Shown here piece after piece: positions 7,512 to 22,364 of a DNA stretch of 28,987 nt. Numbering within the stretch: position 1 is the stretch's first letter; each line of letters begins with the position of its first letter. The stretch spans positions 1-28,987 of IMG/VR virus record IMGVR_UViG_3300042905_003576, one strand, 5' to 3'. Under the pieces are notes generated by a model. It made no database searches. It was given only the letters and a program-made list of their open reading frames with translations, and was not told the origin of the DNA. Source of the stretch: a virus. Both the position numbers and the translations under genes were made by a program.

Positions 7512-9121
7512 TGCGGGGGACGACGGCGATGGTGGAAGCGGCGACGGCGACGGGCAGCACGACGTGCGACTACGCGGACATTGGGCGCGGGATGGTCAAG
7601 TGTCGGCACTGCGGGCACACGCGGACGGTGAAGAATGCCAGTGTGCGGATCGTTCGGTCGTGCCCGAAGCTGCGGGGAACCGGTGCGCGGCCCGTGCTGG
7701 CAGCCTCTGACGGCGATCCGCCGTGGTGGCCGAAGGATGCCGACGGCGACCTGATCCCGCAGGACGAGATCACGGCCGAGGATATGCCCTGCCCAAATCG
7801 CGTCGGCAAGATTCGCGGCGACACCTGCGATACGTGCGGCTCGGTGGGGAAGCCGTTCGACGTGTTTGGGTGCGAGGTGTTCGGCGAATGTTCGCTGATC
7901 GCCCGCAAGAAGGGGGGCGCTCTCGCGAACTGCCTTAAATGCGTCACCCGGATCAACGCTCTGGCGAATCCGCTCGGGTCGCTGCCGGTCGTGCCTGCAC
8001 CGGCGCCGCGAGGCCCCGTCCGGGTCGCCATCCTGACGCCCGACCTCGGCGGCGGGGGCGTCGAAGTCTGGATCGATCACCTTGCGCACCGCATGCCGCG
8101 CGACCTCGCCTACGTGTCCGCCGTGGGGATCGTCCGCCACGGGCAGAAATGGGACCGCGTCGCCAACTCGATTGCGTCCGCGGGCGTCTCGATCTACGGG
8201 ACGCGCGACGTGAAATGGGGGTTTCATCCGGGGCCGGACTCGCCGGTCAAGATGCTCCCGACCGACGCGGACGTGATGCGAGCGGCCACCAAGGGGGCCG
8301 ACGTGGTCGTGTCGTGGGGAACCGCTGACGCTGCGTCGATCCTGGCGGATATCGGCTGGCGTGGTCCTCACGTCCATGTCTGCCACGGGGCGAGCGATTG
8401 GGCGCGGAAACAGGTCACCGGCACGGCATGCACGCACCGCGTCGGGGTGTCGCGTCTCGCGGCGGCGTTGTTCCCCGAGGGGGCGGACGTGATTCCCAAC
8501 GGGTCGGACGGCGAGCGGCTGCGTCCCGTTCGATCGCGCGACGCCGTGCGGGCCGAATGGGGCCTCGCCGACCGGGACATTGCCGTCGGCCTCGTGGCTC
8601 GGGTTGCGACGGAAAAGCGACCGATGGACCTCGCGCGGGCTGCCGTCGCGTTGCAACGCCTCGTTCCGGATCGCCGCGTGCGCCCGGTCTGGATCGGCCC
8701 CGGCCTCGAAGGTGACGTGCGACGATACCGCGAGGAAGCGGCCCGGATCGCCGGGGACGCCTGCGTGTGGGTCGCCCCCCCTGAGTGCATCGGCGATGCG
8801 TGGCACGCTCTGGACGTGCATTTCCTGCCGTCGCCCGAGGAAGGGTTCGGGCTGGTCATCACCGAGGCCGGGCTGGCCGGTATCCCGCAGGTCGCGCGCA
8901 ACACGGGCATCGTCCCAGAGATCAACGAGCGGCTGCCGGGGGCCATCCTGACGGTTCCCCTCGACGCAGACGATGAAACGCTCGGGCGGGCGTTGCTCGC
9001 CGCGATGGACGGCAAGCGGCGGCACACGGTGTCGAATCTGCGGCAACTGTGCTGGATCGAGTACAGCGCGGCGAAGATGGCGAAGCGATGGGCGGAATAC
9101 CTGCAAGGGGTGGTCGGATGA
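7511..9121 (+). CDS. GT4-type glycosyltransferase with cysteine-rich N-terminal region
   Basis: A 536-residue protein using the ATG at 7511, which overlaps the previous stop. An ATG at 7529, with a GGGGG run upstream, is an alternative. Residues 1-150 hold three CxxC pairs (31/34, 106/109, 141/144) and several single cysteines, suggesting zinc-ribbon-like folds. Residues 169-530 form a GT-B glycosyltransferase: a Gly-rich loop in the first Rossmann half (LTPDLGGGGVE), and the C-terminal EX7E nucleotide-sugar motif with Glu444 and Glu452 in PEEGFGLVITEAG. Retaining GT4 enzymes transfer a sugar from a nucleotide sugar. The acceptor is unknown: a virion protein or host surface glycan would both fit. 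It overlaps the methyltransferase by four bases. Confidence 0.8.
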   Translation: MRGTTAMVEAATATGSTTCDYADIGRGMVKCRHCGHTRTVKNASVRIVRSCPKLRGTGARPVLAASDGDPPWWPKDADGDLIPQDEITAEDMPCPNRVGKIRGDTCDTCGSVGKPFDVFGCEVFGECSLIARKKGGALANCLKCVTRINALANPLGSLPVVPAPAPRGPVRVAILTPDLGGGGVEVWIDHLAHRMPRDLAYVSAVGIVRHGQKWDRVANSIASAGVSIYGTRDVKWGFHPGPDSPVKMLPTDADVMRAATKGADVVVSWGTADAASILADIGWRGPHVHVCHGASDWARKQVTGTACTHRVGVSRLAAALFPEGADVIPNGSDGERLRPVRSRDAVRAEWGLADRDIAVGLVARVATEKRPMDLARAAVALQRLVPDRRVRPVWIGPGLEGDVRRYREEAARIAGDACVWVAPPECIGDAWHALDVHFLPSPEEGFGLVITEAGLAGIPQVARNTGIVPEINERLPGAILTVPLDADDETLGRALLAAMDGKRRHTVSNLRQLCWIEYSAAKMAKRWAEYLQGVVG

Positions 9122-9759
9122 CTGAAGCGGAACGGCAAGTTGCGTGGCTGACCGGCTGGCTCGCGGATCACCCCGACGCAGGCATGGTCTACGGCGACCA
9201 GTGGGGCAGGGTGACCGACGGCGCGATGGCCGGGGTGTTCGCTCACTTGTGCGACTGCCTCGCGCTCGCCCCCGGCTGCGTGCTTGAGATCGGCCCCGGT
9301 GGCGGTCGCTGGTCCCGCGAGATCGCGCCGCGCATCCCCGAGGCGTCCCGGCTGATCCTGGTCGACGGCACCGATGCGGCCCGCGACACCCTCGCCCGAC
9401 AGGTCCGCCGCCCGTTCGACCTGATCGTGTCCCCGGACGGCAACCTTTCGGAAATCCCGAATAGTTCGGTCGACCTCGTGTTCTCGTTCGACGTGTTCGT
9501 GCATTTCGACAACGTACTGTTTTTGCAGTACATGCGGGAAATCTATCGCATCATGCGGCCCGGCGGACGGCTGATGCTGCACTACGCGCACAAGTGGGAC
9601 CATCCGGGAGTCGTCGCCGATCCCACGGGATGCTTTATTCCCCCGAGCGTGTTCGCGCGGGACATCCTCGACCAGCATTTCGAGCGTGACGATGCGGGGG
9701 CCTATCTGCCGATCCCGCGCGGGTTCGGGTCGCTGTTCGTGTCGGTCGTCAAGCGGTGA
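9118..9759 (+). CDS. SAM-dependent class I methyltransferase
   Basis: A 213-residue protein starting at ATG 9118 (ATGA overlap). An upstream in-frame start would lie inside the glycosyltransferase gene. Motif I is LEIGPGGGRW at residues 56-65, the acidic end of strand 2 is LVDGTD at 81-86, and a VDLVFSFDVFVHF segment forms motif IV. RPGGRLMLHY follows as the next strand. This is the Methyltransf_11/25-like fold, usually acting on small molecules or sugars. Coupling to a glycosyltransferase suggests methylation of the transferred glycan or its precursor. It is the last gene of the late plus-strand run. Confidence 0.8.
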   Translation: MTEAERQVAWLTGWLADHPDAGMVYGDQWGRVTDGAMAGVFAHLCDCLALAPGCVLEIGPGGGRWSREIAPRIPEASRLILVDGTDAARDTLARQVRRPFDLIVSPDGNLSEIPNSSVDLVFSFDVFVHFDNVLFLQYMREIYRIMRPGGRLMLHYAHKWDHPGVVADPTGCFIPPSVFARDILDQHFERDDAGAYLPIPRGFGSLFVSVVKR

Positions 9760-9762
9760 CGC

Positions 9763-9996
9763 TCAATCGTGCCGCGCTGGGCCTCGCGGGATGCCCGCTC
9801 CCGGCCCTTCGAGGAACTCCCACCCCTCGCGCCAACGCACGCCGTTTCCGGTCTCGACCATGTACCCGTTCGCGATGCCCTGCCGAACAAGTTCGAGGCG
9901 TCCGCTCTCGCCGACAACGTACCCCGTCGCTCCAGCCATCGCACAGACGACGAGCACGGGAAAATAGGCAACGGCGGGTCGCGAGTACCGGTCCAT
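9763..9996 (-). CDS. Small single-pass membrane protein, unknown function
   Basis: A 77-residue ORF convergent with the methyltransferase gene and only three bases from its stop. I chose the ATG at 9994-9996 (minus strand) because the longer frame begins with TTG and its extra residues are arginine-rich and not protein-like. No clear ribosome binding site is visible. Residues about 8-27 (PAVAYFPVLVVCAMAGATGYV) form one transmembrane or signal-anchor segment, followed by a polar tail with a WREGWEFLEG segment. Lysis accessory or superinfection-exclusion roles are possible for such phage proteins, but nothing here shows either. Confidence 0.45.
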   Translation of the reverse strand: MDRYSRPAVAYFPVLVVCAMAGATGYVVGESGRLELVRQGIANGYMVETGNGVRWREGWEFLEGPGAGIPRGPARHD

Positions 9997-10117
9997 TCGC
10001 AGTATTGGCCGCTGCCTCACGCGCAAAGTCAAGTCTGCGGCGTCATATTTCGCATCGCCGTATCGCCAAAAACGAAGCGCTACACGAAATGTAGCGCCGG
10101 ATTCTCGCCGGTTTCCT

Positions 10118-10173
10118 CCCGCTTTCTTGGTCAAATTTGACTAAGAATCCGGGGCGAGAACCGGGAATGAGCC
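10118..10173. repeat. Degenerate copy of the replication-origin element
   Basis: A 36-bp interrupted palindrome (10118-10153) is centred on the perfect 12-mer GTCAAATTTGAC (10130-10141). On its right are two 11-bp units, GGGCGAGAACC (10152-10162) and GGGAATGAGCC (10163-10173). The same core, the extension CTAAGAA and the same 16.5-bp distance from palindrome centre to first repeat recur at 20311-20392 inside the initiator gene. The two right-hand units match the iteron GGGAAGCAACC at 7 and 8 of 11 positions. Confidence 0.65.
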
Positions 10174-10354
10174 GAAGTTTCGCGCAAAATTTGGAGCGGG
10201 CCACACACTGCGCGCAGGATGGCGCAAATTCTGGCTTGGACGGTTCGGCCTTTCGCCTGCGGCGACCGATACAGCGATCCGAGGCGCCGACTGTGGCTCG
10301 GGCGGTTACATGGGTGGGGGTCCTTACGGACGGAAATGCAGAAAGGCAAAAGCC

Positions 10355-10421
10355 TGTCACCCTAAGCAACGGGCGCACCGACCCCGCGTGATGCGAGGTC
10401 GGCGGGAGTGTCACCCTGAAG
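10355..10421. repeat. Hairpin flanked by TGTCACCCT(G)AAG direct repeats
   Basis: Direct repeats TGTCACCCTAAG (10355-10366) and TGTCACCCTGAAG (10409-10421) flank a strong hairpin at 10378-10402 with CCGACC and GGTCGG outer arms, a CGC/GCG inner arm and a five-base loop. There is no T-run, so it is not a standard terminator. It may be a REP-like palindromic element or an RNA structure. Confidence 0.4.
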
Positions 10422-10772
10422 TATCCGGTGCTTCCCGTCCGGGGATGATTGATTTTCGTGGAACCCCGGATTCCTCCGTCACCACGGGCTGCGGATCGGC
10501 TCTCGATCAATCCGGGGGCGTTCGTCGGTACACCTCACCCCGGCACAGACTCTTCTCGTCGAGGCTTCGGGCGCGTTCCCCGGTGGCGACGGTCCACCTT
10601 CCGTGATCCACCGCAGTGGCAACTCGTCACGGTCGAGCCTGGTTCGGATTGTCGCCAATGAGGACGACGAGAACCAAAGAGGGAGAACTTCTCGTGAAAC
10701 GCGGCGAATCGTGTGTCGATCTCTTGAACCGCGAGCGGAAGTTTCTATCCTTGCGTTGGTTTTTCGTTGACA

Positions 10773-10810
10773 GGCCGGGGTTGAGATTCCAAGTCTCCCC
10801 CGGCCATTTT
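10773..10810 (+). terminator. Candidate rho-independent terminator
   Basis: GGCCGGGG (10773-10780) pairs perfectly with CCCCGGCC (10798-10805). Inside, GAGA (783-786) pairs with TCTC (794-797) around a seven-base loop TTCCAAG, and ATTTTC follows. It would stop plus-strand transcription leaving the late region. The inner arm also resembles an acceptor/T-arm minihelix, but no other tRNA part is present. Confidence 0.5.
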
Positions 10811-10861
10811 CATTGACGGGCGTATCTTGAGCGTGTTCTAGCTCGGTCGTCAATGCTCGCA

Positions 10862-10882
10862 AGTCCCGCCCGGACTGTTTTT
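10862..10882 (+). terminator. Candidate rho-independent terminator, weak stem
   Basis: AGTCC (10862-10866) pairs with GGACT (10872-10876) around CGCCC, followed by G and TTTTT (10878-10882). The stem is only five base pairs. It may back up the stronger hairpin 55 bases upstream. Between the two lies a longer inverted repeat, CATTGAC (10811-10817) with GTCAATG (10849-10855), enclosing GAGC/GCTC. Confidence 0.4.
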
Positions 10883-11039
10883 CTCCGGAAAGTCGCGGAC
10901 TCGGTCGCCCAAAAAATGGCTTGACAGCCGTCTGTACCTGCGCGAATGTACACGCACGCCCCACGACGGGGACCGATGGCCGCGCCGGAACAGCAAGCCC
11001 CCACAAGGGCACGCGGTCGCCTCCCGATGATGGGGGCTG

Positions 11040-11174
11040 ATGATGGGCATGATCGCGTTGGAGCCGTGGGCACGGCTCGTGTTTGTTCGCTGCTGCTGGG
11101 CGCTCTGCTGGATCGACACGGGGCCGACTGCGCCCCCTGGATCGCCCCCCGCGCAACACGCCTGCGTCTGGTGA
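11040..11174 (+). CDS. Tiny hydrophobic ORF, unknown function
   Basis: A 44-codon frame (MMGMIALEPWARLVFVRC...) with GGGGG about five bases before the ATG and third-position GC as high as in the neighbouring genes. Residues 13-27 are hydrophobic and include three cysteines and two tryptophans; a Pro-rich tail follows. It sits between the terminators and the convergent PDZ gene. Nothing identifies it, and it may be noise; the ribosome site and codon bias are the only support. Confidence 0.3.
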   Translation: MMGMIALEPWARLVFVRCCWALCWIDTGPTAPPGSPPAQHACVW

Positions 11175-11189
11175 CGGGGCTGCGGTCGC

Positions 11190-12104
11190 TCACTTCGCCT
11201 TGCTGGCGGCGTTCCGTTGGTGCCACAGCGCGGCCGCTGCGACGTCTCGCATGACGAGGTAGTTGAAGCCCTGAAGCGATGCGCTCGCTCGAGATTCCTT
11301 CCCGTTCAGGGACACCCCGACCTTTCCCGTCTCGGTCTCCAGTTGGGAGATCGCTTTGACCTCTTCGTCCGTGAGGTACACCGTGACCGTTTCCTCGACA
11401 CCGGCCCCGACGCGCACGTTCTGTTTGACGTCCCCCAACTTGAAATCCCGCTTGATGACCGTGTCGCCGATCTTGACCTCTGCGGAGCGGATGAAAAGCC
11501 AATCCTTGCCCTTCCAACCGAGTTGGATATTCCAGTCCATTTCCCCGTTGACGTTCGCGTTCCAGAATGGGGAAACCGTCACCCCGTTCAACTCGCTGTC
11601 GTCAATGTCGACGATGTGGTGGTACTGCGCCCAACCCTCGCGCGTGGGGTTTTCGGTCTTGTTGTGCAGACGGACGCACCACTCGCCGTACGCGATGGGC
11701 TTCAAGTTTGCCTCGACCCGGTCTCGCCACTGCTTGCGGGCAGCCAAAATGCCCGGTCGAAGGTATGCGACGACAACGGGGTCTCCGGCCTTGAGTTTTG
11801 CGAGCGATGCTTTCGCTTGCGCCGCGTTGTCGATGACGTCTTCGCCAATCTGCACCACGGCGTATTCCGGCTTGATCCCGAACTTGGCCGCTGGACTTTC
11901 GGCGCCAACGCTGAGCACCCACGCCCCCTTGAGCGGGAACAGCGCCGACGTCTTGGTGATCTTTCTGTCGCGCGGCGGGATCGGCCCCAACTCGAGGCCA
12001 AGAACCGGGCGGTCGTACCAGTCTTCGGCAACAACTGGACCACTCAGCGAAAGAACCAGCACCGACACAGTCGCAAGAAAACGCCCCGCGCACGAACCGG
12101 CCAT
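11190..12104 (-). CDS. Secreted PDZ-domain protein (moron candidate)
   Basis: A 304-residue protein on the opposite strand to nearly all its neighbours. I start at the ATG (12102-12104) because a Sec signal peptide then begins exactly at residue 1: a short basic start, a hydrophobic core (FLATVSVLVLSLSG) and an Ala-X-Ala-like cleavage after residue 26 (VVA/ED). Residues about 35-117 form a PDZ domain (LGLELG; SPAAKFGIKPEYAVVQIGEDVI; GDPVVVAYLRPG). Residues 120-304 are beta-rich with no recognised family and no protease catalytic motif. The own-strand unit, signal peptide and place between tail genes and integrase are typical of lysogenic-conversion genes expressed in the host envelope. Envelope or surface function is inferred. 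Confidence 0.7.
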   Translation of the reverse strand: MAGSCAGRFLATVSVLVLSLSGPVVAEDWYDRPVLGLELGPIPPRDRKITKTSALFPLKGAWVLSVGAESPAAKFGIKPEYAVVQIGEDVIDNAAQAKASLAKLKAGDPVVVAYLRPGILAARKQWRDRVEANLKPIAYGEWCVRLHNKTENPTREGWAQYHHIVDIDDSELNGVTVSPFWNANVNGEMDWNIQLGWKGKDWLFIRSAEVKIGDTVIKRDFKLGDVKQNVRVGAGVEETVTVYLTDEEVKAISQLETETGKVGVSLNGKESRASASLQGFNYLVMRDVAAAALWHQRNAASKAK

Positions 12105-12173
12105 GATGCATTCCCGGGAACTCAAGTGGACTACAGTGGACAAACCACGACAGACAGGCTACCGTTTGCCCCA

Positions 12174-12218
12174 CCAAAAAAGCGAGCCACGGGGGGACGC
12201 CAATCCCCCGCGTGGCTC
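12174..12218 (-). terminator. Strong minus-strand terminator
   Basis: GAGCCACG (12184-12191) pairs with CGTGGCTC (12211-12218), extended by GGGGG with CCCCC. On the minus strand the hairpin is followed by GC and six T (complement of 12176-12181). It would stop minus-strand transcription just before the PDZ gene's own start region, so that gene must have a promoter inside the last 70 bases. Confidence 0.65.
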
Positions 12219-12404
12219 TGACCAACTGTCCGTCGTTCACACGGAAGTGGCTATGCTCGTGGATTCTATGCGCCTCCGAGGGCGCTTTGCACTGCTGCGC
12301 GCGGTTGAACCAAGGCAATGGTTCCCGCTTCTCTCGCGCCCGCCTCCGTTGACCCCGCGATGACGCTTGCTTTGCGTCCGTTGGGTGGTCCGGCGGATGC
12401 CCTG

Positions 12405-12443
12405 AAAAGCCAAAAGCCGAGAGGGGCGGCAACCCCTCTCGGC
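12405..12443 (-). terminator. Second minus-strand terminator
   Basis: GCCGAGAGGGG (12416-12426) pairs perfectly with CCCCTCTCGGC (12433-12443) around CGGCAA. Read on the minus strand it is followed by TTTT GGC TTTT (complement of 12405-12415). It would stop antisense transcription coming out of int/xis. On the plus strand there is no T-run, though the hairpin would lie in the excisionase leader RNA. Confidence 0.6.
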
Positions 12444-12487
12444 CCGTTTGGCATCAATCCATGTCCCCCCCAGCAAAGGCGAGACAG

Positions 12488-12706
12488 ATGGACGATACCC
12501 ACGGTGCGCCCGTATGGCAAGGAAGGTTTCCCGATGACACTCGCGGCCCGATGGCCGTGGAGCATTGGGCGGAAGTGTTGGGAGTGGACGAAAAGCGAGT
12601 GCGCGACCTGCTGCGCGAGCACAACGTCCCCCGGAAGAAGATCGGAGCGCGGCTGTACGTTCGCGCGTCCGACCTGTGGTCGGCTTTCAAGTACGTCGAG
12701 GACTGA
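12488..12706 (+). CDS. xis: Excisionase-like HTH protein
   Basis: A 72-residue protein from ATG 12488; a frame extension to 12461 has no ribosome site. Residues 22-72 form the small winged-helix layout of phage excisionases and MerR-like DNA-binding domains (AEVLGVDEKRVRDLLREHNVPRKKIGARLYVRASDLWSAF). Excisionases bend DNA beside attP and direct the integrase toward excision. It ends three bases before the integrase gene, the standard xis-int arrangement. It could instead be a small transcription regulator with the same fold; a second such protein is encoded at 14313. Confidence 0.65.
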   Translation: MDDTHGAPVWQGRFPDDTRGPMAVEHWAEVLGVDEKRVRDLLREHNVPRKKIGARLYVRASDLWSAFKYVED

Positions 12707-12709
12707 AGC

Positions 12710-13891
12710 ATGGGTAAGCGGCAACCGAACGGGGCCGGTTCGATCTTTCGACACCGGGGCGGCTGGCGACTCGAACTGCGGATCCGCCAGCCTGACGGCT
12801 CGATGAAGCGTGTCACGCGCGATCGGAAGCGACAATCCGACCTCGTCACGCTCCGCGAGCAACTGCTGTTCGACGCGAAGTCGACCCCGTCGTTGCCGGT
12901 TGCCGCGTTTCCGACGGTGCCCGAGTGGTTGGCTCAATGGCTGGAAGCCGGGCGACCATCGTGGGCCTCGTCGACGTTCACCAACTATCGGCAGATCGTT
13001 TCGAAGTGGATCGTCGGTCGCACCGGACCTGTCCGTGTTCCCGAGTTCTCCGCCGGTCACGTCCGCGCGTTGCTGTCCGAAGCGGCGGCGGACGGGGCGG
13101 GCGTTCGAACTCAACAGGTGATTCGCGAGGCCCTGCTGTCGGCCTTCAACATGGCGAAGCGTGACGGGATGATCATTTCGAACCCCGTCGAGGGAATCCC
13201 GGTTCCCCGTGGCGATGCCGATCCCGAGATTCGCCCCTTCACCGAACCCGAGGCGCGGGCCCTGCTGGCCAAGTCGAGCGGGCATCGATACCACGCGGCG
13301 GTCGCCATGATGCTCACCCTGGGCCTTCGAATCGGCGAAGTGGCCGGGCTTCGAAAGGATCACGTCAGCATGGCGGCGCGCACGGTTCGAATCGAGGAGC
13401 AAATCACGCTCGTGTGGGGCGTGCTGACGCGGAAGCGGCTCAAGACCAAGCATTCCAAGCGAACACTGTCCCTGCCCGAGGAAGCCGTCAAAGCCCTGTT
13501 TGAGCACGAAGCCATCATGCTCCGCGAGGGGCGGCGCGACCGCGACATCCTGTTTCCCACGAAGGACGGCAAGACGATCAACCGGGCCGTGTTCTCGCAC
13601 TCGTTTTGGAAACCGCTGTTGAAGCGGTGCGGCATCGAGGCCCGCGGCGTCCATCACGCCCGGCACACGTTCGCCACGATGACCCTGCGGCACGGCGTGG
13701 CGTTGCACGTCGTTTCCCGCATGCTCGGGCACAGCAGCCCTGGCGTTACGCTCTCGGCGTACGCGCACTACGTCCCCGACGACCAGTCGCGAGCCGTCTC
13801 GGCAATCGATGCGATCATGCGTGGGGCGGGCAATTGCCACCAGAACTACACCAGAAACGAACAGGAACAATCCCAAACTGATGCGGGGTAG
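12710..13891 (+). CDS. int: Tyrosine recombinase integrase
   Basis: A 393-residue phage integrase that performs site-specific recombination between attP and the host site. Residues 1-45 form an arm-binding-like N-terminal region (GAGSIFRHRGGWRLELR). Residues 67-160 form the SAM-like core-binding domain. Residues 175-360 form the catalytic domain, with Arg207 in GLRIGEV, Lys245 or Lys247 in the beta-hairpin (RLKTKHSKR), the H-x-x-R box at His315-Arg318 (HHAR), His341 in LGHSS and the nucleophile most likely Tyr351 (SAYAHY). All key residues are present, so it should be active. The attachment site starts 24 bases after the stop. Confidence 0.93.
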   Translation: MGKRQPNGAGSIFRHRGGWRLELRIRQPDGSMKRVTRDRKRQSDLVTLREQLLFDAKSTPSLPVAAFPTVPEWLAQWLEAGRPSWASSTFTNYRQIVSKWIVGRTGPVRVPEFSAGHVRALLSEAAADGAGVRTQQVIREALLSAFNMAKRDGMIISNPVEGIPVPRGDADPEIRPFTEPEARALLAKSSGHRYHAAVAMMLTLGLRIGEVAGLRKDHVSMAARTVRIEEQITLVWGVLTRKRLKTKHSKRTLSLPEEAVKALFEHEAIMLREGRRDRDILFPTKDGKTINRAVFSHSFWKPLLKRCGIEARGVHHARHTFATMTLRHGVALHVVSRMLGHSSPGVTLSAYAHYVPDDQSRAVSAIDAIMRGAGNCHQNYTRNEQEQSQTDAG

Positions 13892-13914
13892 GGCTTTGCG
13901 CCTGTTGGTGGTTG

Positions 13915-13957
13915 TGGTCCCAAACCAGGCGCTCTAGCCAAGCTGAGCTACATCCCG
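13915..13957 (-). other. attP: attP core: 5' half of tRNA-Pro(UGG)
   Basis: Read on the minus strand from 13957, the sequence gives a proline tRNA: acceptor strand CGGGATG, TA, a GCTC/GAGC D-stem around AGCTTGGCTA, then CCTGG and the loop TTTGGGA with anticodon TGG. The 3' side of the anticodon stem begins CCA and then diverges (CCACA instead of CCAGG), and no T-arm or acceptor 3' strand follows. The match therefore stops in the anticodon arm, the usual crossover place for tyrosine integrases that use tRNA genes. It is not a functional tRNA by itself. Confidence 0.75.
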
Positions 13958-13969
13958 CGAATCAATTTG

Positions 13970-13993
13970 CCCCGCGTTTTTGCGGGGTTTTTT
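13970..13993 (+). terminator. Terminator downstream of int and attP
   Basis: CCCCGC (13970-13975), loop GTTTTT, GCGGGG (13982-13987), then TTTTTT (13988-13993): a textbook rho-independent terminator. It would end the xis-int transcript and insulate the early operon. Confidence 0.8.
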
Positions 13994-14146
13994 CGTTTCT
14001 GGGCAACGGTACCGATCAACCGTCGCCGTGGGGGCGTGTGACAGGAGCGGACCCGAGAGGACTCGCAATTGCCACCTGAACTGCCACCCAAGGCCAGCGT
14101 AGGGGTCCGGATCGCCACCCGCAAGATTTTCTCGAAAGTTTTTCTG

Positions 14147-14212
14147 TGCCGCATCCATGCCGCATCTGCGTCCAGACCATGCCGCAACCACTGCACATGC
14201 AGTTTTCCGCAT
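14147..14212 (+). repeat. Phased TGCCGCAT repeats, possible integrase/excisionase arm sites
   Basis: TGCCGCAT occurs at 14147-14154 and 14158-14165, TGCCGCAA at 14180-14187 and TTCCGCAT at 14205-14212. The first three starts are 11 and 22 bases apart, so they lie on one face of the helix. An AT-rich tract precedes them. The position about 200 bp from the attP core fits arm-type sites; an early-operon operator is the alternative. Confidence 0.45.
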
Positions 14213-14312
14213 GAGTGCCAATCGAACAAACCCCGCTTTCCGCCGCGTTTTTCGCGGGTATTGTTCCTCGTGTTGACAGCAGCGAACGCAACTGAACGCG
14301 AGGGGACAAACG

Positions 14313-14555
14313 ATGGCGACTGGGACGGCGAACCCAACGGACACCAAATGGGGATACCGGGTCGGGGTCGACGGGCTGGTCGACATCGCCGAAGCGGCGA
14401 AGCTCCTCGGCGGTGTGCATCGGCGGACGGTGGAGCGGATGGCCAAGGACGGGTTGCTGCGACGGTGTGAGATCGGCCGCGCTGGAAAGCAGCGTGGTCG
14501 CATCAAAATCTGTCGGCGGTCGCTGATGGACTACATCCGGTCGACCGAGCGGTGA
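14313..14555 (+). CDS. HTH DNA-binding protein (MerR/excisionase-like), early regulator
   Basis: An 80-residue protein with a strong ribosome site (AGGGGA at 14301-14306, six bases before ATG). Residues 22-77 form a helix-turn-helix of the excisionase/MerR type (VDIAEAAKLLGG, RRTVERMAKDGLL) followed by a basic wing (RAGKQRGRIKICRRSLMDYI). It is the first gene after attP and heads the early operon, so a regulator of early transcription or an excision factor are both plausible. It is similar in fold, not in close sequence, to the protein encoded just before int. Confidence 0.7.
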   Translation: MATGTANPTDTKWGYRVGVDGLVDIAEAAKLLGGVHRRTVERMAKDGLLRRCEIGRAGKQRGRIKICRRSLMDYIRSTER

Positions 14556-14573
14556 CGCGGCGGGGTTGAACGA

Positions 14574-14596
14574 GCGGCGTGTGCCGCGTGCTTTTT
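14574..14596 (+). terminator. Weak hairpin with T-run after the HTH gene
   Basis: GCGGC (14574-14578) and GCCGC (14583-14587) flank GTGT; GTGC and TTTTT follow (14592-14596). It is short and could act as an attenuator between the regulator and the following genes. Confidence 0.35.
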
Positions 14597-14667
14597 CCGA
14601 CCGGCGGGGGTCGGGCAACGAACGAACTGCGCACCCGGTGCGCGCATGGGGTGAGGACGTGGAACGA

Positions 14668-14976
14668 GTGGTTGTCAATCGCGACGGGTACACCGACGAC
14701 CCGGTTGCCGCAGCGGAACAGATGGCGGATAGCGAGGCGGCCCCGTGCCCCTACTTCTCGGTGCGCGGCCTGCCGTCGTGCGTGTTCCCACTGCGGTACA
14801 TCCCCGGCGAGTTCGCTCTGGTCGACGCGCACGGGATGCCGCTGGCGGATTTTGAGTACGGGTCGATGCCGGACCACGAGACGCACGCCTTTGCGAAGTG
14901 GGTCGCGGACGTGATGAACAAGGACGCGAACGCGACGCGGGAAGCGGAAGCGGTTGTGGCTCGGATGCCGGACTGA
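14668..14976 (+). CDS. Hypothetical early protein
   Basis: A 102-residue acidic protein. I use the GTG at 14668, ten bases after GAGGA (14653-14657), because the in-frame extension to a TTG at 14566 is an arginine-rich stretch crossing a hairpin and does not look coding. GTG at 14659 or 14638 are alternatives. The middle has a compact beta-like section with CPYFSVRGLPSCVFPLRY and ALVDAHGMPLADFEYG, and the C-terminus is helical. I do not recognise a family. Confidence 0.5.
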   Translation: MVVNRDGYTDDPVAAAEQMADSEAAPCPYFSVRGLPSCVFPLRYIPGEFALVDAHGMPLADFEYGSMPDHETHAFAKWVADVMNKDANATREAEAVVARMPD

Positions 14977-14990
14977 GGGGGGCGACCGTC

Positions 14991-15095
14991 ATGGATGACG
15001 CGGTGGTGATGTTGGCCAAGACGCTCGGGCCTGTGCTGGCGGTGTGCGTCGTGTGCTGGATCGTGGGCGAGTGCAGACGGGACATGAACGAATGA
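14991..15095 (+). CDS. 34-residue single-pass membrane peptide
   Basis: It starts at ATG 14991 with GAGGGGGG eight bases upstream. Residues about 6-26 (VMLAKTLGPVLAVCVVCWIVG) are one membrane span, followed by a charged tail. The end overlaps the next start by four bases (ATGA at 15092-15095), which supports it being real. Small early membrane peptides of phages often affect host membrane functions, but no specific role is visible. Confidence 0.5.
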   Translation: MDDAVVMLAKTLGPVLAVCVVCWIVGECRRDMNE

Positions 15096-15448
15096 GATCA
15101 CGAAACGGAGTCGCCGACCATCGAATTATCAGCCGACCCTATCGGACCCCGTTCGAGGGGAACCCGTGCCTCGGCCTCATCACTGCCGTCGTCGACAAGG
15201 CGATGAGCGACATTCGCTCTTATGCGGAGTTAGTCAACGGCGACCGCATTGGCAGCGATTGGTATCTGCGGGAGTGTCGCAAGCACGCCGTGTCGGGCTG
15301 GAACTGGGTGAAGTCGGACGCGAAGAACGAACCGGGGCGGCTGACGTTCGTGTTCTGCTGCGAGGCGTTGGACATGGACCCGGAGCGGATTCGGGTTCTG
15401 TTGTCGCGGTTGATTGGTTCGACCGCTGTGTATCGGCTCAACAACTAA
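15092..15448 (+). CDS. Hypothetical early protein
   Basis: A 118-residue protein starting at the overlapping ATG. Its middle is helical with a WYLRECRKHAVSGWNWVKSDA segment, and the C-terminus is helical (DMDPERIRVLLSRLIG). The pattern resembles small phage proteins of unknown function with a HTH-like C-terminal half, but I cannot name a family. Confidence 0.55.
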   Translation: MRSRNGVADHRIISRPYRTPFEGNPCLGLITAVVDKAMSDIRSYAELVNGDRIGSDWYLRECRKHAVSGWNWVKSDAKNEPGRLTFVFCCEALDMDPERIRVLLSRLIGSTAVYRLNN

Positions 15449-15463
15449 GAACGGACGGGGAGC

Positions 15464-15685
15464 ATGGCGAACACAATGCGAATTCAGATGGACAACACTA
15501 ACAACACAACCATCGAGACCATCGCCGATTTGTTGACCATCTGTGATAACGAGGATGAAGACACGATGGTTCAAATCCCGCTTGACCGGGCCGAAGAGTT
15601 CATCGGCCACATACGAACGGTGGTCGAGTTTCACAACAACCAACAAAATGGAGGCAAGGATGCTGGTTCTATCTCGGCGGAATGA
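15464..15685 (+). CDS. Hypothetical acidic small protein upstream of csrA
   Basis: A 73-residue protein rich in Asn, Asp, Glu and Thr with lower GC than its neighbours. GGGGAG directly precedes the ATG. Its last 26 bases overlap the start of csrA, so the two are likely translationally coupled. No domain is recognised. Confidence 0.5.
   Translation: MANTMRIQMDNTNNTTIETIADLLTICDNEDEDTMVQIPLDRAEEFIGHIRTVVEFHNNQQNGGKDAGSISAE
15655..15663 (+). promoter_or_regulatory. Candidate CsrA-binding site at csrA start
   Basis: CAAGGATGC overlaps the csrA start codon. It agrees at 8 of 9 positions with the CARGGAUGU portion of the known CsrA consensus. A matching CAAGGATGG follows the gene at 15857-15865. 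Confidence 0.45.
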
Positions 15686-15854
15686 TGAATCGATCCTGAT
15701 CGGCGACGACATCCGGATCGTGGTCGTCGACATCCGCGAAAACTCCGTGCGGCTGGGCATCGAGGCCCCCAAGGACATGCGGGTGGATCGCAGCGAAGTG
15801 CGTGACGACATCCTACGGGAACGGGCGGCGGCGAAGCGTGGGCGTGAAGAGTGA
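15660..15854 (+). CDS. csrA: CsrA/RsmA-family translational regulator
   Basis: A 64-residue protein of standard CsrA length. It starts MLVLSRR (Leu4, Arg6 and Arg7 of the RNA-binding strand) and continues IGDDIRIVVVDIRENSVRLGIEAPKDMRVDRSEV, keeping Val42 and Arg44 of the second RNA-contact patch. The C-terminal helix is followed by a basic tail. CsrA dimers bind GGA motifs in mRNA leaders and block or alter translation and mRNA stability. GGAGG (15650-15654) sits five bases from ATG. The motif CAAGGATG covers the ribosome site and start codon and recurs three bases after the stop. A phage copy could retune host carbon, motility or biofilm genes, or time the phage's own early genes. Confidence 0.92.
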   Translation: MLVLSRRNDESILIGDDIRIVVVDIRENSVRLGIEAPKDMRVDRSEVRDDILRERAAAKRGREE

Positions 15855-15940
15855 ATCAAGGATGGTGCGTCCCGGCGGCGGTGGAACCGAGAGCGCCCGC
15901 CGGGGCGTTGTGTTGCGGCTCTTATACATGGGGAACAAGC

Positions 15941-17428
15941 ATGTCGACGGTGTTGATCGAAAACGTGGGACCGATTTCCAAGTTGGAGATTCCGCTGCCC
16001 GAGGGTGGCGGGGTGGTCGTGCTGCAAGGGCCGAACGGCTCGGGCAAAACGACGGCGTTGCAATCGGTCGAGGCGTTGGCGAACGGGGCCAAGGCTCCGG
16101 GCCTCAAGGACGGCGAGAAGAAGGGTCGCATCGAGGGGCTTGGCGTGCGGGTGCATGTCGGCGGATCGACGCGGCGGTCGGGTTCGCTGGAGGTGCTGAG
16201 TCTCGACGGCAAGCTCGACGTGTCGGACTTGGTCGATCCGGGCATTACGTCGCCCGAAGCTGCGGACGCTCGACGGATCAAGGCCCTGATCGCCCTGTCC
16301 GGGCGGACGGCGAATTCCGAGACGTTCGGGGAGTTGTTCCCCGGTGGTCCGGACGCCATCGAGGCGCAGATTCCCGGCAAGGTGCTGGCGAGCGGCGACC
16401 CGTTGGAGATTGCGGGGCACGTCAAACGGGCGCTCGAAAAGGCGGCTCGCGACCAGGAGACCGTCGCGGACAACCACGACGGCAAGGCGGCGACGCTTGC
16501 GGCGCAGGTGGGGGACGCCGAACTGTCGGACGTGCCCGACGCGGCGGCGTTGCGGCGGGAACACGGCGACGCGGTGCTGGCGCACATGCGGCTGCAAGAG
16601 GAGCGGAGGAGCGGGCTGGCGGAAGCCGAACGGAGCGAGGCGGCTCGGGCGAAATTGACGGAACTGCGGGCCAAGCCGGGGGACACGGTCGAGGAGTGCG
16701 AGGGCCACGTCAACGAAACCAAATGGCTGGTGGAACAGCGATCCGCCGAAGTGGAAAAGCTGGCAAAGCAACTCGACCAAGCCAAGGGGCATCTCTCCGC
16801 TGCTATGAGAGACCACAAGGACTGGTGCAAGCGGCAGACGTTTGCTGCTGATCGCGCGAAGGCAATCGCCGACCTCGAATCCGTGCTGTCTGGCACCTAT
16901 GCAACCCCGCCAACCGAGGACGCCATCGCCCAGGCCCGAGCAAAGATCGACGCGGCATCGAAGCGGATCGAGGAAGCGGCCCTGCTGCGGGAGAAGCTGG
17001 CGAAGCGGTCCGAACTGGACGCGGCGCGGGAAGCGGCGGCGAAGGCCCGAGCGGTCGCCAAGAAGACTCGCGAGGGGGCCGCGGCGGTCGACGACGTGCT
17101 GTCCGACATGGTCTCACGACTCGGCGTCCCCTTGAAGGTGAAGGTGCTCGACGCGCGGACGCGGCTGGTCACGACGACGGAGCGCGGCGAGGTGCCGTTC
17201 GCGGACCTGTCTGCCGGCGAGCGGTGGCGGATGGCTCTGGACATCGCGGTCGACGCGGTGGGGGCGCGCGGCCTGCTGCCGGTGAAGCAAGAGGCGTGGG
17301 AAGGTCTCGACCCGATCAACCGTGCGGCCATCGCCGAGCACTGCAAGAAACGCGGCGTCTGGGTCATCACGGCGGCGGCGGCTGGCGGGGAAGAGATTGT
17401 GCCGGTCGTGGAAGGGGGTGCGGCGTGA
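15941..17428 (+). CDS. SMC/Rad50-like AAA ATPase
   Basis: A 495-residue protein from ATG 15941 (GGGGA six bases upstream); the longer frame to 15851 has no support. The Walker A motif is GPNGSGKT at residues 30-37. The middle (about 210-400) is a long charged coiled coil. The C-terminal ABC-like signature is LSAGERW at 423-429, followed by a degenerate Walker B region (LPVKQEAWEGLD). This is the layout of SbcC/Rad50/RecF-like proteins: ATP-driven clamps acting at DNA ends. The next large gene is a YqaJ nuclease and then RecT, so it likely belongs to a recombination module. The 86-bp gap before it carries a CsrA-like motif. Confidence 0.75.
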   Translation: MSTVLIENVGPISKLEIPLPEGGGVVVLQGPNGSGKTTALQSVEALANGAKAPGLKDGEKKGRIEGLGVRVHVGGSTRRSGSLEVLSLDGKLDVSDLVDPGITSPEAADARRIKALIALSGRTANSETFGELFPGGPDAIEAQIPGKVLASGDPLEIAGHVKRALEKAARDQETVADNHDGKAATLAAQVGDAELSDVPDAAALRREHGDAVLAHMRLQEERRSGLAEAERSEAARAKLTELRAKPGDTVEECEGHVNETKWLVEQRSAEVEKLAKQLDQAKGHLSAAMRDHKDWCKRQTFAADRAKAIADLESVLSGTYATPPTEDAIAQARAKIDAASKRIEEAALLREKLAKRSELDAAREAAAKARAVAKKTREGAAAVDDVLSDMVSRLGVPLKVKVLDARTRLVTTTERGEVPFADLSAGERWRMALDIAVDAVGARGLLPVKQEAWEGLDPINRAAIAEHCKKRGVWVITAAAAGGEEIVPVVEGGAA

Positions 17429-17661
17429 GTCTCGACCCGAACGCACCGGCGTATCCGCAGGGGCCAAAAGACCGATACGGCGACCCAATCCGCTGCGAAG
17501 GGATGGGACTCACCGTGCGGGAAGCGATGGCGAAGGACAACATGGCTGCATTTTTGGTGGGGAACCCGGAGCCGAACGTCACGCATCTCGCTGGCGTGGC
17601 CGTCGAAGCCGCCGACGCCCTGATCGCCGAACTCAACAAGACCGAAGGGGGTGCGTCGTGA
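17425..17661 (+). CDS. Hypothetical small early protein
   Basis: A 78-residue protein starting at GTG inside the GTGA overlap with the ATPase stop. It is composed of an N-terminal Pro-rich segment, then helices (LTVREAMAKDNMAAFL; VAVEAADALIAELNK). No family is recognised. Confidence 0.5.
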   Translation: MSLDPNAPAYPQGPKDRYGDPIRCEGMGLTVREAMAKDNMAAFLVGNPEPNVTHLAGVAVEAADALIAELNKTEGGAS

Positions 17662-17849
17662 TCGCGTGGTGCTGGCCCAAGCAACCGGGGGTGTACTGGC
17701 TGCGGAGCGAGTTCGACACCGCTAACCGATTTACGCTCGGGCCTGACGGGCTGTGGTCGTTTGGCATGTGGGGTGGTTGGACCCGCCAGCAAATCCGCCT
17801 GCTGGGGTGGCGTGGGATTCCCTATCGGATGGAAGGGGGTGCCTCGTGA
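17658..17849 (+). CDS. Hypothetical small tryptophan-rich protein
   Basis: A 63-residue protein starting at GTG in a GTGA overlap. It contains about eight Trp residues (WCWPKQPGVYWLR; SFGMWGGWTR). It is beta-like and small. Position within the recombination module is its only context. Confidence 0.5.
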   Translation: MIAWCWPKQPGVYWLRSEFDTANRFTLGPDGLWSFGMWGGWTRQQIRLLGWRGIPYRMEGGAS

Positions 17850-18739
17850 TCGCAGTCGCACAAACCGGCACGGACGAATGGTACGCCGCGCGATCGACCG
17901 GAATCGGGGCCAGCGAGGCGGCCGCGGCGTGCGGTCGCTCCCAGTACGAAACTCCGCTCCACGTCTACGCCCGCAAGGTCGGCGAACTGGCCGAGACGCG
18001 GGACAACGAGGCGATGTACTGGGGCCGGGTGCTGGAACCGCTGGTCCTGACGCGGTTCGTCGAGCAGTCCGGGCTGGTGATCGAGGACGCTCCCTGCCCG
18101 ATGTTCCGCCGTGACGAGTTGTCGTTCCAACTGGCGACCCCTGACGCGATTCTCGCCGATGGGACGCTGGTCGAGATCAAAACCACGAACTGGCGGCGGG
18201 CGAAGGAAATCGGGACCGAGGGAAGCGACGCCATCCCCGACGAGTGGCTGATGCAGTGCCAGCAGCAGATGGCGGTGCTCGGGGCCGAACTGGTCCATGT
18301 CGCGGTGCTGATTGACGGCCGCAACCTGTGGACGGGTCGCGTCGAGCGGAACGACAAGTTGATTGCCCGCATGACGGACATCGAGGCGGATCTGTGGGGC
18401 CGGGTCGAGGCCCGCAACCCGCCGGAACCGGACTGGGAGCACGGAGCGACCCAGGAACTCGTGAGGTCGATCCATGCGGGCGTCGAGGCGGGCAAGGTGG
18501 TCGACCTCGCGGAAGACATCGCGGCGGCGTGGCGGCGGCAAAAGGAACTGGCCGCGTCGATCAAAACGCTGGAAGAGGAACGCGAGGCCCTGCGGTCGCG
18601 GGTGCTGTTCGCGATGGGGGACGCGGCTGTCGGGTGTGCGCCCGATGGTCTGGAACTGGTTCGGCGGGTCGTCGCGGGTGGTCCGGTCTCCTACGAGCGG
18701 AAGCCCTACGCGACGTTGCGGGAGGTCAGCAAGAAATGA
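17846..18739 (+). CDS. YqaJ-type viral recombinase nuclease
   Basis: A 297-residue protein starting at GTG (GTGA overlap). Residues 19-24 are GIGASE, with Glu64 in RVLEP. The PD-(D/E)xK catalytic residues are Asp100 in TPDAIL and Glu110-x-Lys112 in VEIKTT. A Gln-rich helix (MQCQQQMAVL, about 136-145) completes the lambda-exonuclease-like set. The C-terminal 80 residues are helical. YqaJ enzymes degrade one strand of double-stranded DNA to give ssDNA for an annealing protein; RecT is encoded next with a four-base overlap. Confidence 0.88.
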   Translation: MIAVAQTGTDEWYAARSTGIGASEAAAACGRSQYETPLHVYARKVGELAETRDNEAMYWGRVLEPLVLTRFVEQSGLVIEDAPCPMFRRDELSFQLATPDAILADGTLVEIKTTNWRRAKEIGTEGSDAIPDEWLMQCQQQMAVLGAELVHVAVLIDGRNLWTGRVERNDKLIARMTDIEADLWGRVEARNPPEPDWEHGATQELVRSIHAGVEAGKVVDLAEDIAAAWRRQKELAASIKTLEEEREALRSRVLFAMGDAAVGCAPDGLELVRRVVAGGPVSYERKPYATLREVSKK

Positions 18740-19635
18740 GCACGGAAATCACCGAGCGACCGGCTGCGGTCGTCTCTCAAAAGATCGTGGTGACGGACGC
18801 GGTGCCGATGCTCGACACGGGCATGTTCGAGCACATGCAACGGGTGGCGACGGTGTTGGCGGCAAGCCCGCTGCTGCCCGACCACCTGCGGGGCGCGAAG
18901 CGTGGCGATGTGTTTACTCCCTACGAACAGAACAAGATTGTCGCCAATGCGTTCCTCGTGGTGAATCAAGCTGTGCGATGGATGATGGACCCCTTCGCGT
19001 TGGCGGCGGAATCCTACGTCGTCGGCGGGAAACTCGCGTTTCAGGGAAAAGTGATCCAGGCACTCGTCAACAAGCGGGCGGGCCTCAAAACGCGGCTGTC
19101 CTACGACTTCAGCGGCGCCGGGGAGGACCGCAAGGTGACTGTGACCGGCACGTTCGATGGGGAGACCGAACGCCGAAGCGTCGAGGTCGTCCTCAAGAAC
19201 GTCAAGACGGCAAACCAACTTTGGAAGACCGACCCGGATCAAAAGCTGGTCTACAACGGGTGCATCAAGTGGGCGCGCCGATTCGCGTCGGATGTTGTGC
19301 TCGGCGTGCTGACCGACGATGACCTTGAGCGGATGGCTGAGAACCGCACGCCACACACGACGATGCCGGTGTCGGACGCTGCCACGAAGTCGGAGCGGAT
19401 CGCACTGGAAATGTCCGCGCCGACCACGCCAGCGGGCGAGACGTTCATCGAAACCGAGGCGCAAACCCCGTCCGCTGTCGCCCGCTACGAGGCCCGGATC
19501 GCGGCGGCGACGCTCGACACGTTGGCCGATGTGGCGGCGGATTTCGACTCCGACCCGGAGTTGAGCGACAGCCAAAAGTCGCACCTGGCGAAGCTCGGCA
19601 TGGAACGCCAGCAGGCTTTGACCACCAAAAAATAG
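18736..19635 (+). CDS. recT: RecT-family single-strand annealing protein
   Basis: A 299-residue protein starting at an overlapping ATG (ATGA). The region about residues 30-180 shows the RecT layout: MFEHMQRVATVLAASPLLP, then NKIVANAFLVVNQAVRW, DPFALAAESYVVGGKLAFQG and VIQALVN, followed by NGCIKWARRF. The C-terminal 100 residues are helical and more variable. RecT anneals complementary ssDNA and works with the exonuclease encoded before it. The stop (AAAAAATAG) lies at the edge of a hairpin. Confidence 0.88.
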   Translation: MSTEITERPAAVVSQKIVVTDAVPMLDTGMFEHMQRVATVLAASPLLPDHLRGAKRGDVFTPYEQNKIVANAFLVVNQAVRWMMDPFALAAESYVVGGKLAFQGKVIQALVNKRAGLKTRLSYDFSGAGEDRKVTVTGTFDGETERRSVEVVLKNVKTANQLWKTDPDQKLVYNGCIKWARRFASDVVLGVLTDDDLERMAENRTPHTTMPVSDAATKSERIALEMSAPTTPAGETFIETEAQTPSAVARYEARIAAATLDTLADVAADFDSDPELSDSQKSHLAKLGMERQQALTTKK

Positions 19636-19649
19636 CCCGCAGTGGGCTA
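19627..19649 (-). terminator. Minus-strand terminator-like hairpin at recT 3' end
   Basis: TAGCCC (19633-19638) and GGGCTA (19644-19649) flank GCAGT; on the minus strand TTTTTT follows. No minus-strand gene is seen upstream of it, so it may only be a structure at the recT stop, or it may block antisense transcription. Confidence 0.4.
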
Positions 19650-19928
19650 CGGACGCGGTTCCGACGCCGCTGGGTGACTCTGTCTGTTCGGTCACTCGGT
19701 TGCGGAATCCGCCGGTGCATCACTCGTGCCGCACAGGGGACGTAGCAGCCCCCGGACAAAACATCCGCGCCCGGATGAGAAACGAGTGGAGGGAAGACGG
19801 ATCGCGGGTAGGGATGCCACGGCCACGGACGGCCAACGGCTCGTGCAGGTGCTGGTCGGCAGTCATGCCGCCGACTGCGGGGTTCGACTCCCCGGCGGGC
19901 CTCTGTTGTTCGTTTTTTCGAGGGACCA
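19650..19928 (+). other. Gap between recT and the initiator gene
   Basis: About 280 bases without an ORF worth keeping. It contains small hairpins (GTGAC/GTCAC near 19675-19700; ATCCG/CGGAT near 19770-19783) and a tRNA-like element at 19831-19902. The next gene's ribosome site GAGGGA is at its end. Confidence 0.6.
19831..19902 (+). tRNA. tRNA-like element, anticodon CAT (degenerate)
   Basis: The T-arm is perfect: CGGGG (19878-19882), TTCGACT, CCCCG (19890-19894). The acceptor strands GGCCAAC (19831-19837) and GCGGGCC (19895-19901) pair at five of seven positions. CGGCA (19857-19861) and CGCCG (19869-19873) form an anticodon stem with one mismatch; the loop is GTCATGC, so U33 and a CAT anticodon (Met or Ile2 type). 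A GG pair sits at the D-loop position. The weak D-stem, a G at position 8 and the mismatches mean it may be a decayed phage tRNA or a tRNA mimic. Confidence 0.5.
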
Positions 19929-20801
19929 ATGAGCGCTCCAGCCTACCCCAAGCGTTCATCCCATTTCGCCCATAGGTTCGTTCGCGCCATGGTCAAAACG
20001 TGCGTAGCTCAAGAACACGGACAGGGGGCTTTCACGCTGCTGTCCGTGATCGCCCACACGGAAGACGCCCGTCGCTACACCAGCCCGGTCACGTTCTGGA
20101 ATGAGCAGTTAGCCGCTGTCGCCGGGTTCGCAAACGTCAAGGCAATGGACCGACAGCGAGCCAAGGCCGTCGAATCGGGATGGCTGGTGTACATCCCCGG
20201 AGCCAAAGCCAAGCCCGGAAAGTATTGGGTCGCCATCCCCCCCGAATTCTCCATTTTGGACGACGGGCCGACAGACGAAGGGTGCGTCGATGTATCAACG
20301 GACATGAATACTTCCCCAGATTCTACGTCAAATTTGACTAAGAAAGTGGGGAAGCAACCGGGAAGCAACCGGGAATTAACCGGGAAGCAAGTGGGCAACA
20401 TTCAACCCTATCCCTATCCCTCCCCCTCGCCCTCCCAAAAACCCATGTCCACTCAGCGCGCGCGCAAGGGTGGAATGGGTGTCCTGACGGACTGGAAGAA
20501 ATCCGACCTGACGGACGACGCCAAGCTGATCGAGCGTTTCCGCGAAGCCGTCGCCGCAGGGGTGATCCCAGACTCCGAAGCCATGCGGCTGCGATTCGTC
20601 GCCGAGGCCGAGCGCGTGTTGTCGGCCAAAGGTGTGCGCAACGCGGCGGTGATGTTCGTCGCGAACGTCCGCAAGGGGCTGCCGGATCGGCTGACCGACG
20701 CCGACGAGGATCGCGGGCGGGCGCGTCTCAAGCGGATGCGGGCGGGCAAGGTGAACGACGCGGCTGCACAACTGGCCGAGAAGCTGGGGGGGCCATCGTG
20801 A
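19929..20801 (+). CDS. Lambda-O-like replication initiator
   Basis: A 290-residue protein. Residues 10-115 look like a winged-helix DNA-binding domain of phage initiators (FVRAMVKTCVAQEHGQGAFTLLSVIAH, then TFWNEQLAAVAGFANVKAMDRQR). Residues about 125-175 are a low-complexity linker (Ser, Thr, Gly, Lys, then a Pro-Tyr run) encoded by the iteron DNA. Residues 180-290 are a helical C-terminal domain that could contact the helicase or loader. Lambda O has the same two-domain plan with the origin inside its gene. DnaB follows after one short gene. Function as initiator is inferred from layout and context. Confidence 0.7.
   Translation: MSAPAYPKRSSHFAHRFVRAMVKTCVAQEHGQGAFTLLSVIAHTEDARRYTSPVTFWNEQLAAVAGFANVKAMDRQRAKAVESGWLVYIPGAKAKPGKYWVAIPPEFSILDDGPTDEGCVDVSTDMNTSPDSTSNLTKKVGKQPGSNRELTGKQVGNIQPYPYPSPSPSQKPMSTQRARKGGMGVLTDWKKSDLTDDAKLIERFREAVAAGVIPDSEAMRLRFVAEAERVLSAKGVRNAAVMFVANVRKGLPDRLTDADEDRGRARLKRMRAGKVNDAAAQLAEKLGGPS
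20311..20435 (+). other. ori: Putative replication origin inside the initiator gene
   Basis: A 44-bp interrupted palindrome (20311-20354) matches at 18 of 22 pairs, with the perfect core GTCAAATTTGAC at 20327-20338. It is followed by four 11-bp direct repeats at 20349-20392 (GGGAAGCAACC twice, GGGAATTAACC, GGGAAGCAAGT). After that comes a polypyrimidine run at 20404-20435. Eleven bases is about one helical turn, so the repeats face one side. This is the arrangement of an iteron origin in an O-like gene. Confidence 0.65.
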
Positions 20802-20944
20802 GCGAGCGCGATCGACAAGCGGCGTTGCGGGCGATCCTTCGACCACGGTCGCGGGACGCCTCGCCGGTAGACGTGGAGCGGTTTCGGCAGGTGTGCCTCG
20901 CGCACTTGCGGGCGATGCGGGACGGAAAGCGGGTGACGCGATGA
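20798..20944 (+). CDS. 48-residue basic protein between initiator and helicase
   Basis: It starts at GTG in a GTGA overlap with the initiator stop and ends in an ATGA overlap with dnaB. The sequence is highly basic and helical (RQAALRAILRPRSRDA, VERFRQVCLAHLRAMR). Double coupling argues that it is real despite its size. In lambda, the gene between O and the helicase step encodes the helicase loader P; this protein is far shorter, so a loader function is only a guess. Confidence 0.55.
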   Translation: MSERDRQAALRAILRPRSRDASPVDVERFRQVCLAHLRAMRDGKRVTR

Positions 20945-22338: not shown

Positions 22339-22364
22339 TGGGTTTCATTTTTCGGGAGGCGAAC

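Follow-up and report, generated by a model that had tools for sequence, protein, structure and literature searches.

A putative second initiator-binding site 10.2 kb from the in-gene replication origin of an uncultured phage

What is a relative of a replication origin doing 10.2 kb away from that origin, in DNA that apparently encodes nothing? The question arises in the window, a stretch of 28,987 nt (positions 1 to 28,987 of IMG/VR record IMGVR_UViG_3300042905_003576) from an uncultured phage that probably infects planctomycetes. The second site, at 10097-10173, is apparently intergenic and non-coding and lies beyond the last tail and late genes; no convincing gene was found to overlap it. 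An initial annotation had described it as a decayed duplicate of the origin, built around a 12-mer shared with the initiator gene. This 12-mer, GTCAAATTTGAC, indeed has just two occurrences in the window, 10130-10141 and 20327-20338, with no copies at one or two mismatches, and its reported CTAAGAA extension is real, the exact stretch common to both sites being the 18-mer GTCAAATTTGACTAAGAA. Inverted repeats were found around each copy, at 10105-10166 (arms of 31 nt, 71%) and at 20311-20354 (arms of 22 nt, 82%), so that both 12-mers do centre imperfect palindromes. To the right of both centres, units starting with GGG set in at a distance of 16.5 bp; those at 10.1 kb agree with the iteron GGGAAGCAACC in 7 and 8 of their 11 positions, again as described. 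The description was thus accurate but incomplete, having missed two minus-strand units in the left arm (L1 and L2). The site and its surroundings comprise the following elements.

9766-9993, minus strand: possible ORF for a small membrane protein, with its start about 105 bp from the site
10076-10098, minus strand: terminator-like (intrinsic) hairpin GGCGCTACATTTCGTGTAGCGCT followed by a T-run, directly adjoining the site on its left
10099-10109, minus strand: left-arm unit L2, GGCGAGAATCC, a weaker iteron-like match (7/11)
10110-10120, minus strand: left-arm unit L1, GGGAGGAAACC, iteron-like (9/11), 15.5 bp from the centre
10124-10147, no strand: central 24-bp dyad TTCTTGGTCAAATTTGACTAAGAA, with 11 of 12 pairs, the centre of the site
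10152-10162, plus strand: right-arm unit R1, GGGCGAGAACC, iteron-like (7/11), 16.5 bp from the centre
10163-10173, plus strand: right-arm unit R2, GGGAATGAGCC, iteron-like (8/11)

L1 is the best-matching iteron unit of the site, and both the 11-bp spacing of the units and the 16.5-bp offset are the same as at the in-gene origin. A CCCTAW hexamer tract is absent here. Nor is there a separate AT-rich tract; weak pairing is confined to the dyad core, which forms the third least stable 30-bp stretch within the window. An Rfam search with the element returned no structured-RNA match, and a search for relatives of the ORF at 9766-9993 found none. Two further structures lie to the right: a hairpin at 10357-10423, with a CCGACC/GGTCGG stem from about 10378 and the near-repeats GTCACCCTAAG and GTCACCCTGAAG on either side, and, at 10773-10805, about 1.9 kb upstream of the integrase gene, the sequence GGCCGGGGTTGAGATTCCAAGTCTCCCCCGGCC, which is similar to the acceptor and T-arm of a tRNA and is possibly the relic of an attachment site.

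The view that chance is very unlikely to have produced this arrangement was borne out by a scan of dyads and flanking iterons in combination. Six phage records (222 kb) yielded 130 dyads of 24 bp with at least 9 of 12 pairs, and each was scored for the presence of iterons on either side at a distance of 15-16 bp. No assumption was made about the dyad sequence, and the scoring matrix was derived from 16 in-gene units, the 10.1-kb site contributing none. Only the 10.1-kb site (16.9) and two in-gene origins, those of the window (20.4) and of its relative G002 (20.2), stood out; the next dyad scored -9.5. The origin of a second relative, G001, is not in the list, presumably as its dyad falls under the nine-pair cut-off. 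Outside the 12-mer, the right arm and the origin arm share 23 of 36 positions, as against a maximum of 21 elsewhere over 56,826 window positions. The 11-bp tandem pair at 10152 reaches 16.2 bits and the runner-up among unrelated pairs of the window 4.6; when a 12-bp spacing is also allowed, however, one unrelated pair in G002 reaches 16.0 bits, so the tandem pair alone is not decisive and the joint dyad-plus-two-arm architecture is. Nor does the element recur in many unrelated places: the exact 18-mer has two matches in IMG/VR and seven in GTDB, all isolated and without iterons, and a general repeat or host motif is ruled out, these matches being isolated chance. A search of IMG/VR for the dyad plus GGG retrieved the G001 and G002 origins together with five unrelated contexts. 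When region 9760-10911 was compared as DNA with 392 genomes of the planctomycete phylum, only short matches of 27-45 bp were found and judged to be chance; for the match at 10151-10177 (L046), no dyad was present in the stretch read.

To judge what the second site may do, the origin that it resembles has to be described. That origin is located inside the initiator gene, among genes for replication and recombination.

17753-18739, plus strand: RecE-like exonuclease
18736-19635, plus strand: RecT-like annealing protein
19929-20801, plus strand: initiator gene, encoding a winged-helix N-terminal domain (about residues 1-112), an origin-encoded linker and a C-terminal domain
20306-20316, minus strand: one weak inverted iteron, GGGAAGTATTC, to the left of the origin
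20321-20344, no strand: in-gene origin dyad TTCTACGTCAAATTTGACTAAGAA, with a core 12-mer that is identical in G001 and G002
20349-20392, plus strand: four 11-bp iterons of the origin (GGGAAGCAACC twice, GGGAATTAACC and GGGAAGCAAGT)
20406-20423, plus strand: CCCTAT hexamer tract, which follows the iterons and is conserved across the family
20893-22338, plus strand: DnaB-type replicative helicase, after the initiator gene

A search with the DnaB-type helicase matched distant phages only. Downstream of it, the protein encoded at 22332-23309 ends in a stretch that resembles ribosome modulation factor, with a Pfam RMF match (E 1.4e-5) that falls just short of the curated cut-off.

The initiators of G001 and G002 are 71-72% identical to that of the window over the best matching segment, and both relatives retain GTCAAATTTGACTAA plus GGG iterons within the gene. 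The dyad and 11-bp iterons, all inside 19929-20801, are codon-identical in these relatives: the codons over TSNLT agree at 5/5 in the three phages, as do those for P-G-N-R-E. Because only about half of the codons are shared elsewhere in the DNA-binding domain (35-50 of 80-84 conserved residues), selection acts on the in-gene DNA pattern as such. Distant homologues in G005, G007, G008 and plasmid pPLIM01 carry other repeats at the same position in the gene, and a CCCTAA/CCCTAT-like hexamer tract follows the repeats in every in-gene origin examined in the initiator family. The tract is read in different codon frames, as Pro-Tyr, Pro-Asn or Pro-Ile repeats (window 20406-20423; L012, L013, L017, L033, L035, L037), which suggests selection on the DNA and not on the protein. 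The G003 origin has AATCAG repeats in place of the tract. In pPLIM01, a plasmid of Planctopirus limnophila, the distant homologue is the hypothetical protein PLIM_RS21975 (L033 5923-6951), which shows 29% identity to the initiator over the DNA-binding domain (tblastn E 5e-3) and has repeats inside its gene; the replication origin of the plasmid may therefore reside there.

The N-terminal 112 residues of the initiator are predicted to fold with a pLDDT mostly of 73-93. For residues 15-112 of this model the best structural matches are 4pql, 4pt7 and 5kbj, with Z scores of 9.4, 9.1 and 8.6 against a common background of 7-8, and these entries bear the titles 'N-terminal domain of DNA binding protein', 'Structure of initiator' and 'Rep-DNA complex'. 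We take all three to be structures of RepA_N plasmid initiators. With a common background that high, the predicted fold supports a winged helix but not membership of the RepA_N family. The initiator has no match in Pfam at E<=1, the RepA_N model included, and no family match in PHROG.

Is the second site then a copy of this origin that has decayed, or a binding site in its own right? Its relatedness to the origin is well supported by the architecture, as is the idea of a second initiator-binding site. The best origin match at the site detected by BLAST is inverted, pairing 20314-20372 with 10154-10097 at 79.7% over 59 columns (E 5.8e-6); in the same inverted orientation the cores CCCCGGATTCTTAGTCAAATTTGACCAAGAAAG and CCCCAGATTCTACGTCAAATTTGACTAAGAAAG agree at 29 of 33 positions, and the AGAATC/AAGAAAG flanks common to the site and the window origin are unseen in G001 and G002. 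So close a match to the window's own origin, with the linker frame still recognizable at 10.1 kb (APDS*SNLTKKAG), would suit a relic without present function, either part of an inverted origin duplicate or a fragment left behind by cassette-swap recombination. The original claim of a decayed duplicate, by contrast, is right only in part. In the three clear units, mismatches to the window iteron fall at 2 of 24 invariant positions and at 7 of 9 variable positions (positions 5-7), a bias (Fisher p=2.6e-4) that is post hoc and rests on few letters; against it, R1 deviates at position 4, R2 at position 9 and L2 at three informative positions. Moreover, the right arm at 10.1 kb corresponds, given the inverted orientation, to the in-gene left arm, and its two further iterons have no counterpart there; a copied origin that merely decayed would not yield the site. 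Invariant iteron positions kept, iterons on two sides and no hexamer tract give the element the look of a binding site, not of a complete origin in decay. Flanking initiator coding sequence has left no trace at 10.1 kb, where tblastn finds only the dyad-encoded linker, and a remnant of a second initiator gene was rejected. We accordingly consider a functionless relic fairly unlikely, and the element is probably a binding site for the phage's own initiator.

Comparison with relatives bears on both readings. A sister phage, G003, has a record of 40.9 kb that appears to be a circular and complete genome because its ends match. It is 98% identical to the window over 12126-19931 and mostly 90-92% over the rest of the aligned window, falling to about 71% over 8012-9760. 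In G003 and G004, window positions 19932-20435, that is the DNA-binding domain and the origin, are replaced by an unrelated domain with repeats of its own, while the C-terminal part of the initiator, a domain common to all three, is kept (20436-20827 at 94.7%), as are the flanks; the DNA-binding half and the origin are thus seen to be swapped as a block of ~500 bp (L014 9743-10555; L015). Window 9760-10911, with the second site inside, is likewise replaced in G003 (8931-9928). This segment forms the junction between the late genes and a conserved promoter-like TTGACA near 10920; it appears to hold small minus-strand ORFs in G003 and is largely non-coding in the window. Location of both the element and the origin cassette within segments replaced relative to G003 is a further point for the relic. 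No second copy of the own origin dyad was found in G003 or G004, none of the own origin sequence in G007, G008 or pPLIM01, and no second site in G001, G002 or G005. The absence from G001 and G002, which have the same initiator family, means that conservation across phages does not vouch for function. Among the records compared, the site occurs in one phage only, as a relic might, and this phage has the matching initiator, in what is a single comparison. From this pattern one may imagine that a two-sided dyad-centred locus serves remote control only and was acquired with the swapped initiator and origin cassette, an idea that we hold to be unlikely on the sequences at hand; if true, initiator specificity, origin and distant control site would evolve as a matched set.

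G003 also weighs on a possible role in the mode of replication. The initiator G38P of Bacillus phage SPP1 has one binding region, oriL, within its own gene and another, oriR, 12-13 kb away in an intergenic part of the late region; according to a proposal, initiator bound to oriR brings forks to a halt and sets off concatemer replication (PMC3485210, PMC6316719). By analogy, initiator bound at 10.1 kb could form a fork barrier or a late origin in a switch from theta to recombination-dependent concatemer replication. The 10.2-kb separation is similar, and the window encodes RecE, RecT and DnaB helicase, as the SPP1 model requires. A near-uniform G excess over the window and G003 would fit unidirectional replication, although gene orientation confounds the signal, and GC skew shows no change of sign useful to place an origin or terminus. 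However, G003 has a RecE and RecT pair 98% identical to that of the window, in the same gene order, without a second copy of its own origin; since it lacks one, a concatemer switch in this group needs no second site. SPP1 oriR, moreover, has its own AT-rich unwinding region, whereas the 10.1-kb site is weakly paired in the dyad core only. We regard an oriR-like role as unlikely.

The local setting suggests yet another role, as a transcriptional operator through which the initiator, or some other dyad-binding regulator, would control 9766-9993 or transcription entering from the right. The site does lie about 105 bp upstream of the start of that ORF and next to the minus-strand hairpin, but the same terminator-like element then separates it from the gene, and no promoter-like match was found in 9600-11300 with the sigma-70 consensus, the only one used. 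A regulator that recognized just the dyad would also leave the shared 11-bp iterons unexplained, and we consider an operator quite improbable.

We tentatively favour, at somewhat less than even confidence, a second, non-origin initiator site that sequesters initiator and/or pairs with the in-gene origin. The winged helix at the N terminus of the initiator (19929-20801) would bind the 11-bp GGG units at 10.1 kb, and the central dyad would probably be held by an initiator dimer or higher oligomer, as at the in-gene origin. Two-sided iterons without a hexamer tract would allow the initiator to be loaded without starting a full replication bubble. From such holding without firing, action at a distance would follow: the site could sequester initiator and/or pair with the in-gene origin by looping or handcuffing, and either process would damp origin firing. 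Remote restraint of the origin by pairing or titration seems the likeliest role, albeit one that we put forward with reserve, because the site has the binding pattern but no hexamer tract and because the replication and recombination genes of G003 do their work with no site of this kind. For the same reason a second site must be dispensable in this group.

Few systems are known in which phages carry distant second initiator sites, and the action of SPP1 oriR is itself still a proposal. Judged by layout, SPP1 is the closest known arrangement to the two sites of the window: both phages combine a repeat cluster in the initiator gene with a distant intergenic cluster in the late region, and both have genes for an exonuclease, an annealase and a DnaB-type helicase nearby. 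The two differ in that both window sites are centred on a dyad, with iterons on both arms of the distant one, whereas SPP1 oriR consists of direct repeats plus an AT-rich unwinding element and the second site of the window is without the conserved hexamer tract. What is new relative to SPP1, as read from the sequences, is this dyad-centred, two-sided layout of the second site and its absence from near relatives. In the genome of phage P4, too, initiator-binding repeats form two separate regions, ori1 and crr.

RepA_N plasmids already provide examples of iteron origins inside the initiator gene and of exchanged blocks made up of N-terminal domain and origin, and lambda provides one of an in-gene origin. 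According to the available part of the work on pSK41 and the chimeric pPR9 (PMC5703833), these plasmids have a winged-helix N-terminal domain that binds DNA and a separate C-terminal domain, with the origin repeats midway along the rep gene, and differ by exchange of a ~500-bp N-terminal-plus-origin block, much as the window and G003 differ over 19932-20435; that part of the work describes no second distant site. Unlike RepA_N proteins, the window initiator has no Pfam match at E<=1, and host phylum and sequence differ. Lambda, in the portion of the account available (PMC3349717), likewise has iterons, of 18 bp, inside gene O and adjoining the unwinding region, but this is its one iteron origin of the kind, with no dyad-centred second copy. 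In Vibrio cholerae, RctB sites outside the minimal origin, namely 39-mers and a distant iteron cluster, restrain the origin by titration and handcuffing (PMC6090056), as the putative 10.1-kb site may do; the 39-mers, however, differ in sequence from the iterons and are located next to the origin, whereas the second site of the window is a relative of the origin located 10 kb away. For planctomycete phages and pPLIM01, in which replication has been little studied, the comparison offers a specific prediction of origins. In addition, a near-identical pair of phages, one with and one without the second site and with the initiator module swapped between them, makes the role of such a site testable by module exchange.
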